DNA of 39,927 nucleotides from Candidatus Hodarchaeum mangrovi (GTDB lineage: Archaea; Asgardarchaeota; Heimdallarchaeia; Hodarchaeales; Hodarchaeaceae): contig JAEOUE010000134.1 of NCBI GenBank assembly GCA_016839515.1, forward strand, positions 1-39,927. Direction: 5' to 3'. Shown piece by piece: positions 31,607-39,927 of the stretch (positions are counted from its first letter, which is position 1; each line of letters opens with the position of its first letter). The position numbers were made by a program, and so were the translations under genes. The notes under the pieces were generated by a model, which searched no databases, was not told the DNA's origin, and worked only from the letters and a program-made list of their open reading frames with translations.

Positions 31607-34057
31607 CTAACGAGCTAAATGGACTAAGATTTGACCTTTTAGTATATTTCCTATTACATCTACAATCATAAAAGTAATCAGATATTTGTCTAAGGTGTGA
31701 TATTTATGATGTGATTTTAATTTAGGGACTTGAATTATCTTTTTACCTCTGAATTCCCGCCAAGATAAAAAAGAATAATCATTAAACTTATTTTTTGAAT
31801 ACCAGTCGACACTCCAGTAATCAACTAATGAATTAAATTCTAAATTTGGTTGAATATCATTATCCAACAGATTTAGCTGAAAGTCCTTTAAAGTAAGATT
31901 AACCTCTGTTGTTTTGATTTCTACATAGAAAATTGCCTTTATGTGAACAGGTTTCCTATTATACTCTCCCTCAAAAGAAAATTCAATAGAATCAGAAGGT
32001 AGAACTACTTTAGAACATTTTAATGGTGTTTTGACATCATTCTTATTTGTTAAATACAATAAATTAAACGGGGAAAAATTAGAATTTTTAAAAATTCGCT
32101 TTTTGATTTCTTGAATTGAATACGAACTTATATCAGCTCCTATCCACCCTCTTTTCATCTTTTCTGCTACTGCAAGAGTTGTTCCTGATCCTGCAAAAAA
32201 ATCTCCTATAAAATCCTTTTCAGAGGTTGAAATTTCTAGAATCCTTCTTAATAACACTTCAGAGTTTTCTGTAGGGTACCACGTTTTCTTTACTTTTTCA
32301 TAACCTGCAATATCAACCCAAATATTATCATTTGGGTATTCAATCTCAGCAAAATCTTGGAATTTACGTTTTTTCTTATTAATTTTAATTAAATTTAATT
32401 TCGAATCCTTTGAAACACGATAAACATAAATACTATCTGAATGAACAATTAAATGCTTTTGATGATATGCCTGTTTGTTTGAAAGATTCTTCTTCATCCG
32501 ACGGACAATTAATTCGACAACGAAATTTTTTTGGCCAAAAACCATATCCAATAATTCTTGCGCATAATGACCAAAATGATAATCAAATCTTACGAAAATA
32601 AATCCATCATCACAAAGAAGATGTTTCATTATTCTAATCCGAAAATAAAACCAATTTCGAAAAAAATCTATCGCATTAAATGATGGAGGAGTATTTTTGT
32701 AAGCTATTTCTTCAAAGAATTGTTCTGAATGATTCTTAGATCCCTTAAGTGGAATTATTATTTTTTCTGGAACTCCGGTAAAGAAAGGAGGATCAATATA
32801 AATCGCTTTTAACCGTTTTTCCCATTCTTTACGGAGTAAATGACATGAATGGAGATTATCACCACTGATTAAGAAATTTTCAATAGTATTATTGAAAATA
32901 AAACGTGAATCAGGAGAGAATCTTTCAGTATGAACCAATTTATATTCAGGATCGTGAATTGAATCTTTTTTTTGTTTAAAAAAAGAAAGAGATGATCTAA
33001 AAGGGATTTTTCGCTCGCAAAAATTCTTATCAGATACTTTAAAGTATTTTAATGCTGAACTCTGAGGAAAAATTGATATCAAATGCCCTATTCTTTCATT
33101 AGAAGGTTGAATTCCAATCCAAATTAACCTATGAGAGTTGCATATATCTTGATATAACGAAGGGTTTGGTGAAATTAAAATGAACTGATCTTGAGCTTCA
33201 TTATACATCTCAATTAACCGATTTAAGACCTTTTTTGAGAGGACCAATGATCCATTAGAGAATGAATAACTTTCCAGGTCTAACCAATTTGTATCAATAA
33301 TTTGTCCTTTTTTCTCTGTAACCCAGTATTCAGGTGATCCTTTACTATTCAATCTAATTTTTTTCTCTTTACATAATTCTAAAATCCTTTTTTGATTTAA
33401 TTTCCAATGCGTTCCTGTAGGAGGAGTTAAAATCATATGTTTCCCAGCAATTATGAAAGATTTTGGTTTTCCCTGCCCCTTAGAAACGAAAGAATGCCAA
33501 TAGCCTCCACTACTTTTTGTATTATATATCGGCTTTAAAGGATAAGGGAATTCCTTTGAATAAAGAAGAATATAATTAGTTCGTTCGAAAATTTCTGTAG
33601 TAGATCCATAAAAAACCTTAAATGGACTATCAATTATAATTTCGTTGATAAAATTTTCAATTCCAAAGATTTCATCTAAAAGAATTTTTATTTTTGATTT
33701 AACACTGCCATTAAGAGCAATAGCAAGGATTCCTTTATCAGATAGCAATTCGTATGTACTTTTAAATGATAAGTATATTTCATCCATGAACCCTTGAAAC
33801 TTTTTTGATTCTAATTTTATTAAAAATTGTTTAACATCTCTTAAACTTAAATTAGAATATTTTTCACGTAAAATGGGATTAGCTCTAAAGAAATAAAACG
33901 AAATATCTTGAAAAATATAATTAAATCTCTTTTTACTTGAAATTAACTGATTTAATACCTCTTCACGATTTCCTATTAGGATTGTTTGAGTTTCAATATT
34001 AGATAGTGATCCCTTATATTCACGGAGCTCATCAAACGTTCCAGTTGACTTTTCCAT
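31607..34057 (-). CDS. Tandem beta-class (type III Mod-like) DNA methyltransferase with a degenerate N-terminal copy
   Basis: 816 residues containing the same methylase fold twice. The C-terminal copy (about 410-650) is intact: AIYIDPPFF (motif IV), then GFIFVRFDYHFGHYAQELLD, ending DNIWVDIAGYE and motif I GDFFAGSGTTLAVAEKM with WIGADIS. The N-terminal copy (about 45-330) lines up block by block but has lost catalysis. DPPFF reads QDISFYF. GILAIALNGSVKSKIKILLD matches the strand and helix after motif IV. DTNWLDLESY matches the WVDIAGY block. The motif I position reads ISPNPSLY. A last domain of about 130 residues is beta-rich. Type III Mod proteins pair with a Res helicase-nuclease; none is here. 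ATG at 34057. Confidence 0.8.
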   Translation of the reverse strand: MEKSTGTFDELREYKGSLSNIETQTILIGNREEVLNQLISSKKRFNYIFQDISFYFFRANPILREKYSNLSLRDVKQFLIKLESKKFQGFMDEIYLSFKSTYELLSDKGILAIALNGSVKSKIKILLDEIFGIENFINEIIIDSPFKVFYGSTTEIFERTNYILLYSKEFPYPLKPIYNTKSSGGYWHSFVSKGQGKPKSFIIAGKHMILTPPTGTHWKLNQKRILELCKEKKIRLNSKGSPEYWVTEKKGQIIDTNWLDLESYSFSNGSLVLSKKVLNRLIEMYNEAQDQFILISPNPSLYQDICNSHRLIWIGIQPSNERIGHLISIFPQSSALKYFKVSDKNFCERKIPFRSSLSFFKQKKDSIHDPEYKLVHTERFSPDSRFIFNNTIENFLISGDNLHSCHLLRKEWEKRLKAIYIDPPFFTGVPEKIIIPLKGSKNHSEQFFEEIAYKNTPPSFNAIDFFRNWFYFRIRIMKHLLCDDGFIFVRFDYHFGHYAQELLDMVFGQKNFVVELIVRRMKKNLSNKQAYHQKHLIVHSDSIYVYRVSKDSKLNLIKINKKKRKFQDFAEIEYPNDNIWVDIAGYEKVKKTWYPTENSEVLLRRILEISTSEKDFIGDFFAGSGTTLAVAEKMKRGWIGADISSYSIQEIKKRIFKNSNFSPFNLLYLTNKNDVKTPLKCSKVVLPSDSIEFSFEGEYNRKPVHIKAIFYVEIKTTEVNLTLKDFQLNLLDNDIQPNLEFNSLVDYWSVDWYSKNKFNDYSFLSWREFRGKKIIQVPKLKSHHKYHTLDKYLITFMIVDVIGNILKGQILVHLAR

Positions 34058-34113: not shown

Positions 34114-35121
34114 TTATCCCTTAAATGACAAAGCAACCCAGAAATTAAATAATAAGCGGAGATTTCCAGAAGAACGAAAAAGATACTCAAGATCTTTTGG
34201 AGAGATTTTGTCTTGATTCTTACGTAATTTATCTAATAATTCACCAATAGTAGGCAATTTCATCTCATAGTCAGCTTCAATTGCTTTAACAGACTTACTA
34301 GGATTTAAATTGTTGTCTAGTAACTCTAAACCATTAGAATTTTGATCTATCATCAATAATGTTCTTATAATACCTTCTTTTTCTTCACCTTCGGAAATTC
34401 GATTATGGGTTCCTCTCCATTTAGTTTTTTTCCCAACACCTCTTTCACCACCTCCTGGTAATAAAATCATATTTGATCCTGTTATTCTCCACCTAGCGGA
34501 ATCGCATCCATCAACTAAATATTGAAGATCTTGCATTAAGCTTGGAGCTCCAACGCCTAAAGCCCAAATTTTGGTATTTTTTAAATTTTTTTCGGAGAAA
34601 AAATCTCTAATTTCTTCAATAATGGGAAAAAGCTTATTTCCATGTCCACCACCACTTCGCATTAAAGATACTAATCTTCCGATAAAAATCCACTTTAAAT
34701 TTGATTCAATATCAGTTATTGAATTAATTAAATCTAATTGATTATAAGGAAGGACTGGATATACTTCTAATGAGTGTAGTTTGTTATAATTCGATATTAT
34801 TTTATCATCAGGATAATCTAATGTGATTTTGAATATGTTTGGATCTTGATTATTTAGTTCAATATATAAATCTTTTAAATCTTCTAATTCTATTGTGATT
34901 TTATTTTTCCGATTTAACGCGGAAAAAGCTCCAGAATCACAAATTAATAATCCATCCCAATCTAGAATTTCTCTAATTCCCTTTTTTTCTAATTGTTTAA
35001 ACGCACGAGGACTAGTTAAGAAGTCAATAGCAGAAACCATAAGGGCATCTGGCTTTATAGTCCAGTCAAAAATCCATGGTTTAAACCGTGAAAAAATTGG
35101 TGTTCCCATAGCAAAAATCAA
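34114..35121 (-). CDS. tRNA-guanine-transglycosylase-fold protein, DpdA-like (copy 1)
   Basis: 335 residues. It has TGT-barrel landmarks: LLICDSGAFSAL with Asp62 (TGT general acid/base in DSGG), IFIGRLVSL at the GGLAVGE position, IWALGVGAPSLMQDL at the MGVGTPEDL position, and DGCDSARWR with Asp207 where the TGT nucleophile (DCV.PTR) lies. The TGT Zn site (CxCxxC...H) is absent and the DSGG/Q pair is DSGA. These differences fit DpdA-type enzymes, which exchange guanine in DNA for a 7-deazaguanine, more than tRNA TGTs. A Gly-rich loop GGGERGVGKK follows the nucleophile. TTG start with AAGGGA six bases upstream; it overlaps the stop of the DUF6884 gene as TTGA, so the two are coupled. Confidence 0.7.
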   Translation of the reverse strand: MIFAMGTPIFSRFKPWIFDWTIKPDALMVSAIDFLTSPRAFKQLEKKGIREILDWDGLLICDSGAFSALNRKNKITIELEDLKDLYIELNNQDPNIFKITLDYPDDKIISNYNKLHSLEVYPVLPYNQLDLINSITDIESNLKWIFIGRLVSLMRSGGGHGNKLFPIIEEIRDFFSEKNLKNTKIWALGVGAPSLMQDLQYLVDGCDSARWRITGSNMILLPGGGERGVGKKTKWRGTHNRISEGEEKEGIIRTLLMIDQNSNGLELLDNNLNPSKSVKAIEADYEMKLPTIGELLDKLRKNQDKISPKDLEYLFRSSGNLRLLFNFWVALSFKG

Positions 35122-35621
35122 TTGAATTCCCTTAATACCATTTGATACCTTTTAGGATTTTTGAAATATTTTTCTAAAAATCTTACTAACTTTTGTTGTC
35201 CAACTCCTAGTCCACCCATTGAATCTATTTCAATAGTGGTCGGAATGAAGTCTTGAATCCCCTCAACACTCAATAAATATACTTTTCCCATGAGAATATA
35301 AATCAAATCAAAATATTCTTTCTTATTCCACTCTTGAACGGATGAAATGACACTTAAACGATGTTTCTGTGCAATTTTGGGTGTCATTTTTAAATCATAA
35401 TATTCAATTAAATCAAAACTATGAAGAAATCCATATTTTGCTGATATTATTCCCAGAAATAGATTTTCAGGCCAGTATGGTAATCTTTTTCGTAAGACCT
35501 GATACATTGGTCCTAAATAAGCATCAATCGCTTTCACGGGTTTAACTTTGAGATCTGGGTTCTTTTTCTTACCACAAGACAATATTAAGAGAATTTTTGA
35601 GTCTTTCAAAGTATGTATCAA
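35118..35621 (-). CDS. DUF6884-type protein coupled to the TGT-like enzyme
   Basis: 167 residues. The N-terminus is LLILSCGKKKNPD (11-23), followed by AIDAYLGPMYQ, FLGIISAKYGFLHS and IEYYDLKMTP, the conserved blocks of DUF6884, a YaaA-related family frequent in phages and defence regions. The SCGKKK loop recalls the PCxxxKPY loop of archaeosine synthase ArcS; this is resemblance only. The C-terminal part has a Gly-rich GGLGVGQQK segment. It starts at TTG (a second TTG four codons on is also possible) and its stop overlaps the start of TGT-like copy 1, so it is the first gene of a two-gene operon. The gene start is about 60 bases from the divergent TGT-like copy 2. Confidence 0.75.
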   Translation of the reverse strand: MIHTLKDSKILLILSCGKKKNPDLKVKPVKAIDAYLGPMYQVLRKRLPYWPENLFLGIISAKYGFLHSFDLIEYYDLKMTPKIAQKHRLSVISSVQEWNKKEYFDLIYILMGKVYLLSVEGIQDFIPTTIEIDSMGGLGVGQQKLVRFLEKYFKNPKRYQMVLREFN

Positions 35622-35678
35622 CTCTTAAAAACAACTAAAAAGGATGAAATATTACTCTGTATAATTGGATTCTTTATC

Positions 35679-36626
35679 ATGATTTTATATTTAGGGATTG
35701 TGCCTGGTTTCTTCCCTCACATTGAAGAGGCATTGATCTTAAAAAAGATGAAAGAAATAAACGCAGGATTGATGTTTTCTTATTGGACATTTCGAAAATT
35801 CATACCTAAGATTATATCTAAAGGAATACATGATTTTTTTTCATATGAAGGACCGATCATGATTGACTCAGGAGCTTACAGTGCTTTCAATATGGGCATT
35901 TCTATTTCCTGTGAGGATTATGCAAATTTTCTAAAGAAAATTGACTTAAAATTAAAAGATAAAATTGTTAATCTTGACCTGATAGGAGATTATCAAAAAT
36001 CATTTTCCAATTGGAAATATCTTTCCAAAATGATAGATACTTCTATCATCCCAGTCATTCATTTTCCAGAAATAAATTCTAATTATCCGAATTGTAAAAT
36101 TATTGGATTAGGAGGTATGGTTCCATCCTTAAAAATAAATCAACCTGGAAGTATTTATAATGTAGGAAAATGGGTCGTATTAATTAGCTCCAAAAATCCT
36201 GGTAAAGAATATCATGGATTTGGAATAGGAAGTCCATTTAATCAAATCATTTTTTGGAATTATTTATCCTCTTTAGATTGGATTGGTTGGCGAAGAAATG
36301 CTGCAGTATGTGAATGTTATACCCCTGAAGGGTCAAAAACTGTAACAGAGGCAAGAAAAAAACCAACCAAAAGATCTTCATTAAGTCAATCCTTATTCGA
36401 TCAATATAAACCACCTTTTATTGAAAGCTTCAATTTACTTAGCTTACCAGGAACAAAAGGGTGGAAATACAGAGCATTATGGAATGTTTGGTGGTTTTTA
36501 AATTGTCAGAATTGGCAAGTAGTAATAGATCAGTCCAAATATGTAAGAAGCATGAAAGAAAGAATGAGAAAGATAATTTCTAATACAAATAATAAATTTT
36601 TAAGGAATACACAAAATTATTCCTAG
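35679..36626 (+). CDS. tRNA-guanine-transglycosylase-fold protein, DpdA-like (copy 2)
   Basis: 315 residues from the ATG at 35679. The frame is open to an ATG at 35613, but that adds a hydrophobic 22-residue stretch and overlaps the divergent gene. With 35679 the acid/base Asp is residue 63 (IMIDSGAYSAF), matching Asp62 of copy 1. Further landmarks are LDLIGDYQKS, IIGLGGMVPS (TGT GGLAVGE), YHGFGIGSP (MGVGTP) and LDWIGWRRNAAVCECYT, whose Asp (about 200) is the expected nucleophile. CEC is a remnant of the TGT CxCxxC Zn site, the third Cys being gone. The C-terminal 80 residues are Trp- and Lys-rich. The two copies are clearly related but far diverged. Sir2 follows after 22 bases, probably in the same transcript. 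Confidence 0.65.
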   Translation: MILYLGIVPGFFPHIEEALILKKMKEINAGLMFSYWTFRKFIPKIISKGIHDFFSYEGPIMIDSGAYSAFNMGISISCEDYANFLKKIDLKLKDKIVNLDLIGDYQKSFSNWKYLSKMIDTSIIPVIHFPEINSNYPNCKIIGLGGMVPSLKINQPGSIYNVGKWVVLISSKNPGKEYHGFGIGSPFNQIIFWNYLSSLDWIGWRRNAAVCECYTPEGSKTVTEARKKPTKRSSLSQSLFDQYKPPFIESFNLLSLPGTKGWKYRALWNVWWFLNCQNWQVVIDQSKYVRSMKERMRKIISNTNNKFLRNTQNYS

Positions 36627-36648: not shown

Positions 36649-37401
36649 TTGGAAATTCTAGATCAAATTGTTGAAATAATAAAAAAGTCTAAATATCTAG
36701 TCATTTTCACAGGAGCGGGTATTTCAACTGAATCAGGATTACCAGATTATAGAGGTCCAGAAGGGGTATGGACATTACGAGCTAAAGGATTAAAGCCAAA
36801 AATGCCCGATAAGCCATATTCAGCGATTAATCCTAACGTGGGGCATTATGTTTTAGTTCGTTTATACAAGCATGGGTTTCTAAAATATTTGATTTCTCAA
36901 AATGTTGACAACCTGCATATAAAATCAGGTATTCCAGAAAAAATTATTGCAGAACTTCATGGAAATTCTAATAAGATGAAGTGTTTAATCTGTGATAAAG
37001 GATTCACAAAGAATGAAATTGGGTGGAATGATGCGATCCACGGGAGGGGTTATCGCACACAAAAACCGTTAGAAAATCAACCAAAATGCTCTTCTTGCTC
37101 TGGTAGATTAATTTCGTCAGTTGTGAACTTTAATGACCCAATGCCTGAAAAAGAAATGGCTGAAGCGGAAATAAATTCTAAACGTGCAGATGTTATGATT
37201 GTAATAGGATCTACTTTAAGTGTTTTCCCAGCAGCTAATTTTCCAATCATTGCTAAAAATAATGGAGCAACTTTAATTATCATTAATTTGGGACCAACAG
37301 AATTAGATCATCTCGCAGATTTTCGAGTTTCTGGAAAATCTGGTGAAGTCTTATCTAATATATTAAAGAGATTAGAACAGCAATTAGACCTTGAAAGCTA
37401 G
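36649..37401 (+). CDS. Sir2-family NAD-dependent protein deacylase
   Basis: 250 residues, the size of a minimal sirtuin. NAD-binding GAGIS is at 22-26, LPDYRGPEGVW at 31-41, QNVDNLH at 84-90, the catalytic His is 104 in ELHGN, four Zn Cys are present (112, 115, 147, 150), and IGSTLSVFPAANFP closes the nucleotide site. RGPEGVW resembles the RGPxGVWT segment of SIRT6/7-like sirtuins. All catalytic residues are present, so it should be active; defence-type Sir2 domains that only cleave NAD often lack the Zn ribbon. It begins at TTG behind GGAG and follows TGT-like copy 2 by 22 bases. The genome context is DNA modification, so a chromatin or island-linked role is possible, but a general deacetylase is equally so. 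Confidence 0.88.
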   Translation: MEILDQIVEIIKKSKYLVIFTGAGISTESGLPDYRGPEGVWTLRAKGLKPKMPDKPYSAINPNVGHYVLVRLYKHGFLKYLISQNVDNLHIKSGIPEKIIAELHGNSNKMKCLICDKGFTKNEIGWNDAIHGRGYRTQKPLENQPKCSSCSGRLISSVVNFNDPMPEKEMAEAEINSKRADVMIVIGSTLSVFPAANFPIIAKNNGATLIIINLGPTELDHLADFRVSGKSGEVLSNILKRLEQQLDLES

Positions 37402-37491: not shown

Positions 37492-39927
37492 CTAAATAAT
37501 TGGGTAATCAAAAAAATAATCCTCTATTAACGATTGAATTATAAAATCAGTCAAGACTTTTTTATATACCTCTAAAATTCTTGAATAATTGAACTTTCGA
37601 AGGCTAGAATATTTCTTTAGATTAATTTCATTTCCGATTTTAAAATTATAATACATCTTTTCCCATTCATCAAATTGAATTGGTTTTATCAATAATCTTA
37701 ATTTATCAGATAGAAATACAGATCTGTTTTTTCCTTTTATTTGATATAATTCATTGATCAGAGCACCAATTAATTTTTCCTCGAAATATGTTTGAATGGG
37801 AATTCCTAATTCTAAGGCGGACTTTTCCTCTGTAAGGAATATTAGATATTCAGCGAGTTGTGCGAAAAGGATACTGTACTTTAGAAAATCTTTGTGAATA
37901 GGAAAGAACTCAAGAGGTTCCCCAAAAAATTCGAGTTGATTTCCCTTTTTTTTACCCATCCAATAAAACCAAAAATAGGCCAACTGGGAGTTAAGAATTA
38001 ATGATAACCCTTTAAGTAATCTTGAACCTTCAGATAAACTCATTGATGATATAAAATAAACGTCCTGAGCAGCAAACCATGGATATGAATTATACGCAAA
38101 TGAATTAATCATCCTTCTCTGAGGTGTAATAATTTTTGGGGATAAAAAAATATCAATTTTTCGAGGTCTATTGAGATAAGGAAATTTATCTAAAGAGCGT
38201 TGAAGGACAGATTCAAAGGTGTCCAAATGTCTTTTTATATTAGGAAGTGATTCAATATCAGATATATTCTTATCAAGATATATTATCATTTTATTCGTTG
38301 AAATAGAGGAGTGAAATCTTGAAATATCTGAACTTTTGTAAAAAAATTTTACAAGCTCTACTTCTTGAAGAAGGAATGTCATTAAAAGGTTTTTATCTCT
38401 AGGGTGATTTAGATTCAGTATAAAGACTCCTGAATTTATGTGTTTTTCATCAATTTTATATTTATTCACTTGAATCCTAGAAATCTTATTCATTCCTGTT
38501 ATAATTCCCTCTCTTACCTTAAATCCTGATAAACGTAACTGTTTAGAAGATGAGATTATCTTTTTGACTAATTCTGAAACATTTTGAGGAATAAAATGAA
38601 AGTATGGAGTAAAACCATTAAAACGAATTTGGCCTTTTGGAATATTATAATGAGTTTGAAGATCTATCTTCTTAACTAAATCAGTACCTACAGGATATTT
38701 TTTCGTAAATTGAGTACATTTAATAAGAATATCTTCTTTTTGAGTCTTTTTAAGAGTAAAGGAATTTACATGGATTCCAAGTGCTGAATTAAAGACTGAA
38801 TTATCTCCAAAATTAATATATTTATCAATTTCTGTTTCTCTAAAGATTCTTTCTCTAAGGGTTTTTCCTCCTGAAGCTGTTATCCAATAATTTGAAGTTA
38901 AAAAGGTCATATACCCATTTTCTTGAAGTAGGTCTATCGCACGGTGAACAAAAAGATACCATAAATCCATCTTACCTTCATAATAATTAGGAAAAACTCG
39001 CGAGAGAACTCTGAAAAATTCTTTATTACCACTTTCTCCCTTATAAGGAGGATTACATAGAATAACACTAAATCCTTTAGAAAAATTAAGAATAAGAGGA
39101 TATCTTAAGGGCCAATGAAATAATTGCCTAAAATAATAATCTGGAACATCTTTTGAATTATTATACAAGGAAGTGAAAGAATCTGATATTCTTGTATTTA
39201 AAGAATCTAAAAGATGATCTAATTCTCTAAAAACCAGATTTTTTCCAGAAAGAAGCCAAATTTTTTTAAGAATGTTTGATAATGTGTATAATTCCTTAAA
39301 ATTCCTTAAAATAATTAATTTATCGGAACTTTTAAGCTTCTGTATTAAATGACAATTATTACTTGGGATAATATGTTCTACGGATTGAATGGCATGAAGG
39401 AGATAAACTTGAAGGGATTTACTAATTTGAATATTCTCCTCAAGAGGAAATAGATGCTTTTTTTCACTTATTTGATCTAAAATTTTAAAATTAAAGACAT
39501 TAGAAACTAATCCTAAAATCGAATTTCCCTCTTTTATGTTATCAAATATAATATCAAAATTATAAGCATCAAAGTCGAATTCTTTCTCAATAGTGTTAAT
39601 CGCTGATAGGAATAATCTTAATTTAATGATTTTAACTGCAATTGGATCTAATTCGACACCAAAAAGATTGTTCGGACAAATAAGCTTTGTTATTATTTTA
39701 AATTTGAAATGGTTTAAAGAGGTCGATCCATCAAGGATTTTTTGTTTTAAATCACCATACTCGTCAAGTTCATAATAATAGAAAATAGGAACATTAGCGG
39801 AGTTGATTGCAGCAATTTTCCTCCTCAAAGACAAATAAATTTCAATTAGAAATATTAAGCTTGATTCTAAAAAATTTCCTGTTCCTGCTGTTGGATCTAG
39901 AACTTTTAAATGCTGTAGAATATCAAA
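37492..39927 (-). CDS. Large Eco57I/type IIG-like adenine DNA methyltransferase, N-terminus beyond the window
   Basis: The frame runs from the stop at 37492 to the window end with no stop, giving 811 visible residues. SAM motif I, VLDPTAGTGNFLESSL, lies at about 39861-39903, upstream of a TTG at 39834 that could be mistaken for the start. FGVELDPIAVKI follows, and NPPYKGESGNKEFF is motif IV for adenine methylation. LTSNYWITASGGKTLR matches the core strand after it. The rest (about 400-780) is a target-recognition region with NSQLAYFW near the end, typical of Eco57I/PglX-like enzymes. The missing N-terminus could carry a nuclease; this cannot be judged here. Leftward, convergent with Sir2, which ends 90 bases away. 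Confidence 0.85.
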   Translation of the reverse strand, partial: FDILQHLKVLDPTAGTGNFLESSLIFLIEIYLSLRRKIAAINSANVPIFYYYELDEYGDLKQKILDGSTSLNHFKFKIITKLICPNNLFGVELDPIAVKIIKLRLFLSAINTIEKEFDFDAYNFDIIFDNIKEGNSILGLVSNVFNFKILDQISEKKHLFPLEENIQISKSLQVYLLHAIQSVEHIIPSNNCHLIQKLKSSDKLIILRNFKELYTLSNILKKIWLLSGKNLVFRELDHLLDSLNTRISDSFTSLYNNSKDVPDYYFRQLFHWPLRYPLILNFSKGFSVILCNPPYKGESGNKEFFRVLSRVFPNYYEGKMDLWYLFVHRAIDLLQENGYMTFLTSNYWITASGGKTLRERIFRETEIDKYINFGDNSVFNSALGIHVNSFTLKKTQKEDILIKCTQFTKKYPVGTDLVKKIDLQTHYNIPKGQIRFNGFTPYFHFIPQNVSELVKKIISSSKQLRLSGFKVREGIITGMNKISRIQVNKYKIDEKHINSGVFILNLNHPRDKNLLMTFLLQEVELVKFFYKSSDISRFHSSISTNKMIIYLDKNISDIESLPNIKRHLDTFESVLQRSLDKFPYLNRPRKIDIFLSPKIITPQRRMINSFAYNSYPWFAAQDVYFISSMSLSEGSRLLKGLSLILNSQLAYFWFYWMGKKKGNQLEFFGEPLEFFPIHKDFLKYSILFAQLAEYLIFLTEEKSALELGIPIQTYFEEKLIGALINELYQIKGKNRSVFLSDKLRLLIKPIQFDEWEKMYYNFKIGNEINLKKYSSLRKFNYSRILEVYKKVLTDFIIQSLIEDYFFDYPII

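Follow-up and report, generated by a model that had tools for sequence, protein, structure and literature searches.

We analysed a 39,927-nucleotide stretch of the Asgard archaeon Candidatus Hodarchaeum mangrovi (GenBank assembly GCA_016839515.1, contig JAEOUE010000134.1, positions 1 to 39,927; hereafter the window), which carries a block of two genes for TGT-fold proteins and one gene for a DUF6884 protein. We consider it probable that Hodarchaeales-type Asgard archaea use this block as a chromosomal module for modifying DNA, through which some guanines in the cell's own DNA would be swapped for a 7-deazaguanine. Judged from sequence comparisons, the module is likely a modification-only relative of the Dpd systems. 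It would combine DpdA/DpdC-like chemistry with two TGTs and a small stand-alone DUF6884 protein, fixed in the chromosomes of one genus, and no description of the locus was seen in the literature searched, which covered few subscription papers.

The first TGT-fold gene (TGT1; 34114..35121, minus strand, 335 aa, TTG start) was assigned from motifs, structure models and homologues, and the second (TGT2; 35679..36626, plus strand, 315 aa from ATG) from motifs, models and trees; neither product has Zn ligands. The DUF6884 (PF21818) gene (35118..35621, minus strand, 167 aa, with an alternative TTG start at 35609) was assigned from Pfam and homologues. The preliminary description of this DNA, made from the sequence letters, had placed all three genes on the right coordinates and strands, and its observations on these genes hold, whereas its interpretation is partly supported. 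The TGT1 start overlaps the DUF6884 stop by four bases as TTGA, as was described. The listed open reading frame (ORF) of TGT2 begins at 35613 and the homologue alignments begin at the ATG at 35679; with the start there, the gap that separates the divergent genes DUF6884 and TGT2 (35622..35678) measures 57 bases, and thus the reported distance of about 60 bases was right.

Both TGT-fold proteins carry the motif pattern that had been ascribed to them, along with further residues; the whole set is D62 (in DSGA), D102, a GRL loop (IGRL at 147), GVGAP (188), and D207 in TGT1, and D63, D100, H128, a GGM loop (LGGM at 144), GIGSP (181), and D200 in TGT2. In a 36-row alignment of TGT-type proteins, their Asp residues fall in the same three columns as those of arcTGT and phage DpdA: the first two of these columns contain Asp in 36/36 rows, and the third contains Asp in 34 and Glu in 2 near-identical Asgard rows. 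The CxCxxC ligands of arcTGT are missing from both proteins, in agreement with the earlier statement that neither has an intact Zn site. Protein searches yielded 68 sequences for TGT2 (its own included; the next row was weak at 1.7e-5) and 68 for TGT1. DSGA (68/68), PVxH (68/68), DWxGW (68/68), and NLD (64/68) are retained in the TGT2 family, and DSGA (65/68), LD[YF]P (67/68), and DSxRWR (67/68) in the TGT1 family, where the sequences missing DSGA or DSxRWR are short proteins of 191-275 aa; this conservation exceeds chance in both families. The two profiles match each other in hhalign (98.2%, E 5e-14), and structure models together with structure matches predict a TGT barrel for both proteins, which supports the fold proposed for them. 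Family models recognise them poorly: TGT2 reaches 16.5 bits against the Pfam TGT model, below the cut-off of 26.3, TGT1 has no Pfam TGT match and only below-cut-off NCBIfam TGT matches, and hmmsearch against PDB returned chance rows only for TGT1 and weak TGT rows mixed with others for TGT2.

The kinship of TGT2 points to DNA. It matches the phage DpdA profile at 99.5% (E 8.7e-23), and in two maximum-likelihood trees of 35 and 36 rows, which contain long branches, one clade unites it with phage DpdA and with two proteins from Asgard assemblies that are DpdA-like (99/98 and 99/97); a constraint grouping TGT2 with arcTGT was rejected (approximately unbiased [AU] test, p 0.005). DpdA 7ui4 is not among the structure matches (VIA) listed for TGT2, and its absence from those rows says nothing against this kinship. 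A search of the phage collection with TGT2 gave 54 records at E<=1, and 3 of the 4 phage or virus loci examined adjoin QueE-, QueC-, QueD-, and GTP-cyclohydrolase-type genes; the fourth, in STSV2, adjoins a DUF5591 gene. A plasmid search with TGT2 gave no match, and in a viral-contig scan, made with TGT2 only, three stretches matched a pattern and none was a relative. TGT1 matches the phage DpdA profile at 95.4% (E 1.9e-8), falls near the TGT2/phage DpdA clade (88/79 in the second tree), and has five matching records in the phage collection, from STSV viruses. The two proteins are paralogues, as they had been called, in a deep sense only, as the trees do not pair them; a recent TGT1/TGT2 duplication was not recovered by the trees, though its constraint gave AU p 0.075.

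TGT1 and TGT2 also differ at two His columns of the 36-row alignment. One of them, occupied by H128 in TGT2, contains His throughout, apart from TGT1, which has Pro, and arcTGT; the other contains Trp in TGT1 and His in the other 31 rows. The accessible text of PMC6884629 mentions a conserved His for 9g-type DpdA and describes DpdA2 as being without it. We read H128 of TGT2 as the equivalent of this residue (His196), an assignment of our own.

The block is conserved across the genus. The search covered 56 genomes, of which 12 belong to the genus, 2 others to the order, and a further 42 to the class. Close orthologues were found in the genus, for DUF6884 in 11/12 genomes, for TGT1 in 11/12, and for TGT2 in 10/12. 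One genome of 1.4 Mb (G004) is without all three, and in another (G007) the contig stops before the expected TGT2 position. DUF6884 and TGT1 are co-directional in 11/11 loci, with spacing from a 4-base overlap to 39 bases apart, and TGT2 is divergent in all 10 loci that have it, lying 57-148 bases away in 8 and about 1 kb away in 2. Named homologues come mostly from Candidatus Hodarchaeota, Hodarchaeales, and Heimdallarchaeota, with few Promethearchaeota and Thorarchaeota labels, and the named genome collection yielded 10 loci, all of them from Hodarchaeota or Heimdallarchaeota.

The position of the block beside predicted DNA methyltransferases, which had been taken as support for a DNA role, is conserved as well. 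On the TGT1 side, a predicted N6/N4 DNA methyltransferase (PF01555) that we call c6 (31607..34057, minus strand, 816 aa, motifs DPPF and DFFAGSGT) is present in 10/11 loci, with two genes in between in G005 and one in G007; DPPF/Y and DFFxGSGT were found in 10/10 copies. On the TGT2 side, 8 of the 10 loci have c8, a predicted Eco57I/PglX-like DNA methyltransferase (37492..39927, minus strand, cut by the window end, motifs DPTAGTG and NPPY), with NPPY in 8/8 copies and DPxxGTG in 7/8. The other two loci have c13, an N6_N4-type methyltransferase, of which one copy was tested with Pfam and the other, split into two ORFs, was assigned by clustering. Mean pairwise identity is 63% for TGT1, 60% for DUF6884, 57% for TGT2, and 47% for each methyltransferase, compared with 83% and 71% for the reference neighbours TFIIB and UPF0047. 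Pairwise identities correlate with those of TFIIB at 0.88 (TGT1), 0.87 (TGT2), and 0.76 (DUF6884), and those of both TGTs correlate with those of both methyltransferases at 0.93-0.95; divergence in step with TFIIB is consistent with linked vertical descent. With a conserved methyltransferase neighbourhood and a TGT2 akin to phage DpdA, the DNA hypothesis of the preliminary description gains independent support; the substrate is still predicted, and we infer each catalytic step.

The DUF6884 protein scores 35.5 bits against PF21818, above the cut-off of 30, which upholds its family assignment, and falls just under the cut-off against PF03883; according to the part of PMC11701544 available to us, Pfam's authors call these two families distantly related. 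Its motifs are C16 and K20 (CxxxK), both invariant, and SAKYG. Protein searches gave 143 sequences, 120 of them listed. A genome-mining preprint (PMC11888242, in its accessible text) gives DUF6884 as a domain of DpdC, and therefore the suggestion that DUF6884 alters the inserted base becomes specific, from nitrile to amide. The PADLOC DpdC model matched 13/14 aligned DUF6884 members at E<=0.1 with partial profile coverage (0.0072 for the window's own protein). The only match in hmmsearch against PDB was YaaA (E 0.4). A relationship with DUF5591, the ArcS core, is suggestive only: hhalign gave a probability of 33% (E 4.5e-4), and one plasmid DUF6884 protein matched DUF5591 at 0.0019, under the cut-off.

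DpdA-type neighbours of DUF6884 occur elsewhere: two phages have them, as do three other Asgard genomes and one haloarchaeal plasmid. In phage phiFN37 (L166, 4191-6018), three consecutive genes encode a TGT, DUF6884, and a queuosine-precursor transporter, and HD01 (L167, 3986-8014) has DUF6884, QueE, QueC, QueD, GTP cyclohydrolase, and a TGT in a row. Adjacent DUF6884-TGT pairs occur in the Asgard genomes G086, G139, and G156; near the G139 pair (L151) there are an N6_N4 methyltransferase, BrxL, and a radical-SAM protein that is weakly QueE-like, and near the G156 pair (L152) there is PglZ, so that these two loci may be BREX-like settings for a deazaguanine mark. On the Haladaptatus plasmid NZ_CP119784.1 (47138-65655; L171, L194, L195), DUF6884 and a TGT lie beside DpdJ-like, DpdK-like, and ATPase genes, and two of the three TGT genes are fused to the ArcS core DUF5591; this region is a candidate archaeal dpd-type island.

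As for the supply of the base, a separate arcTGT was found in 11/12 genus genomes, the ArcS core DUF5591 in 12/12, and a YhhQ-family transporter in 11/12. QueC by NCBIfam TIGR00364 was above the cut-off in 0/12 genus genomes vs 9/14 control genomes, and we infer that preQ0 is probably salvaged. Of the Pfam QueC matches, which include G000:C90 and G000:C81, the former is ThiI-like (160 vs 31.6 bits); a PTPS/QueD-type gene lies close to this protein.

In the scheme that we propose, preQ0 would enter the cell through the YhhQ-family transporter. D200 of TGT2 would then attack a guanosine in DNA with assistance from D63, guanine would leave, and preQ0 would be taken in its place; by analogy with TGT, we take D200 to be the nucleophile and D63 the acid-base residue. 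TGT1, encoded together with DUF6884, may carry out the same exchange at another site or with another base. Cys16 and Lys20 of the DUF6884 protein would hydrate the nitrile and convert dPreQ0 to dADG (7-amido-7-deazaguanine), and the flanking methyltransferases would add methyl marks on other bases of the same genome. A PADLOC scan of six window proteins, with the best 25 families considered for the two methyltransferases, listed no separate nuclease and no Dpd restriction gene (DpdD-K), and therefore the mark would serve self-labelling or protection.

One of the closest known counterparts is phage DpdA, as found in preQ0-cluster phages, with which TGT2 shares, besides its place in the trees, the Asp and His columns, the lack of Zn cysteines, and a similar length. 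However, the Asgard module is cellular and chromosomal, forms its own lineage, includes a second TGT-fold protein and DUF6884, and shows no phage-style preQ0 cluster in the block. The best structural match of both models is arcTGT (1iq8), yet arcTGT is encoded by its own gene, has the Zn cysteines that TGT1 and TGT2 lack, and was rejected as a grouping with TGT2 in the tree test. The idea that the two proteins work together like eukaryotic QTRT1/QTRT2 is not supported in the strict sense, because both keep the catalytic Asps and QTRT2 is the non-catalytic partner of QTRT1; two TGT-fold proteins possibly working together are what the systems have in common. Bacterial Dpd systems (DpdA, DpdB, and DpdC with or without DpdD-K) likewise combine a TGT-fold protein with a DUF6884 protein, and dpd islands without restriction genes are reported in the accessible text of PMC11888242. 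The Asgard module differs from them in its two TGTs, in a stand-alone DUF6884 protein of 167 aa vs about 300 in the DpdC profiles, in the adjoining methyltransferases, and in its linked, vertical-type divergence. In the BREX-related capture (BRC) systems with TGT, a TGT homologue is proposed to mark DNA beside self-marking genes and no DpdC homologue was found, as far as the accessible text of PMC12839542 goes, whereas the Asgard block has DUF6884 and the genome G000 is without PglZ, the BREX effector.

Several observations weigh against the DNA-modification reading. The strongest structure matches (VIA) of the models are tRNA enzymes, and the bacterial DpdA models (PADLOC; NCBIfam NF041059) match neither TGT1 nor TGT2 at E<=1; nor was a DpdB match listed for the six window proteins scanned. 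The constraints TGT1+arcTGT (AU p 0.08) and TGT1+TGT2 were not rejected, so that the placement of TGT1 is tentative; as it lacks the two His kept elsewhere, it may use a different base. Neither G012 nor G013, the two further genomes of the order, has a TGT1 or a TGT2 orthologue. QueC by Pfam PF06508 is above the cut-off in 12/12 genus genomes, though at <=34 bits and mostly on a partial model, and therefore the loss of preQ0 synthesis is not proved. The available part of PMC12839542, a BREX study, assigns DpdC to PF03883/DUF328 instead of DUF6884, and the uncharacterised PADLOC family PDC-M57A is a better match to the DUF6884 protein than DpdC (14/14 members, best 1e-13). DUF6884 is also often found apart from a TGT: seven of the nine DUF6884 phages examined had none in the stretch inspected, nor did two of the three plasmids examined among 22 matched, and in 55 DUF6884-bearing Asgard genomes outside the genus a phrog_887 match lies within 1 kb in at least three and at 4 kb in at least one. 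Some of these points would suit RNA modification, in which TGT1 and TGT2 would place preQ0 in tRNA or rRNA, away from G15, and the base would be completed by DUF6884 or ArcS; the arcTGT and ArcS-core genes do show preQ0-RNA chemistry in these genomes. We nevertheless find this unlikely, given the full separate arcTGT, the grouping of TGT2 with phage DpdA, the adjoining predicted DNA methyltransferases, and the DUF6884 genes beside DpdA-type genes elsewhere; in addition, the Pfam search matched an RNA-binding domain in neither TGT1 nor TGT2.

It is similarly improbable that the block is the modification arm of a restriction-modification, BREX, or Dpd system with c8 or a protein elsewhere in the genome as its effector. 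PglZ occurs in 3/12 genus genomes and not in G000, the scan of six window proteins, with the best 25 families for the two methyltransferases, listed no separate nuclease or Dpd restriction gene, and a mobile island would not be expected to diverge as a linked unit in step with TFIIB. Pointing the other way are the likeness of c8 to IIG restriction-methylases (PADLOC 1.6e-27) and to BREX PglX (NCBIfam 3.9e-20, under the cut-off), the Lokiarchaeal-type DUF6884-TGT pairs near BrxL or PglZ, and the haloarchaeal island with DpdJ- and DpdK-like genes. A slightly better, still rather doubtful case can be made for DUF6884 as a DNA-lesion or base-flipping binding protein rather than a nitrile hydratase, in which event the module would end at dPreQ0. 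The available part of PMC11701544 suggests that YfjM, a DUF6884 protein, binds DNA and flips bases; PDC-M57A is the better match in PADLOC, and most of the phage copies examined lack a TGT close by. On the other hand, PMC11888242, as far as its text was accessible, gives DUF6884 as a domain carried by DpdC, and the invariant Cys and Lys together with the repeated TGT adjacency agree with an enzyme that acts on the base after its insertion.

Most reports of 7-deazaguanine DNA marks to date concern phages and defence islands of bacteria, and few known archaea are as closely related to eukaryotes as Hodarchaeales. If the DNA-modification reading is true, a hypermodified base reported mainly from phages and mobile bacterial islands would be stably established in the chromosomes of an Asgard lineage near eukaryotes, archaea would use preQ0 for DNA besides tRNA, and DUF6884, a family of unknown function, would gain a concrete chemistry. 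Only tentatively do we extend this reading to Hodarchaeales DNA that bears two different 7-deazaguanine marks constitutively, for one of which TGT2 would be responsible and for the other TGT1 with DUF6884; together with base methylation, they would form an epigenetic system that is inherited vertically and works without restriction.

Several observations concern the neighbours of the block and related genes elsewhere. The Sir2-family gene between TGT2 and c8 (36649..37401, plus strand) belongs to the cluster in 3/11 loci and is peripheral for this reason. In G005 and G009, DUF6884 and TGT2 are separated by a DUF362 gene, and in G007 such a gene lies upstream of DUF6884 at the contig end (loci L058, L059, and L064, counting G007). 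In the window, c6 has two PF01555 stretches, of which the one in the N-terminal half may represent a second methyltransferase domain that has degenerated. A sigma-70 promoter scan of the 57-base gap was set aside, because the model does not apply to archaeal promoters. Within the order, DUF6884 is absent from G012 and present in G013 at 44% identity (L068, 4692-7825), where it lies between GTP cyclohydrolase II and carbon-nitrogen hydrolase genes, followed by a pterin-binding enzyme gene; no TGT was found among the ORF clusters of this contig. On an uncultured-archaeon plasmid (LC711081.1, 28730-29218; L193), DUF6884 directly follows three DNA methyltransferase genes, with no TGT annotated in 33 kb around it.

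One pattern recurs in Asgard archaea, in a virus of archaea, and on a haloarchaeal plasmid: a small DUF6884 or ArcS-core (DUF5591) protein has a TGT-fold protein next to it or fused to it. In the virus STSV2 (L165, 3935-5345), a TGT-like gene precedes a DUF5591 gene and a DNA methyltransferase gene lies about 2.6 kb upstream; this locus is a candidate for viral archaeosine-type DNA modification. TGT-like genes also adjoin small DUF5591 genes in other Asgard genomes (L143, L150, L153, L154, and L155), and those of L154 and L155 encode Glu in the nucleophile column.

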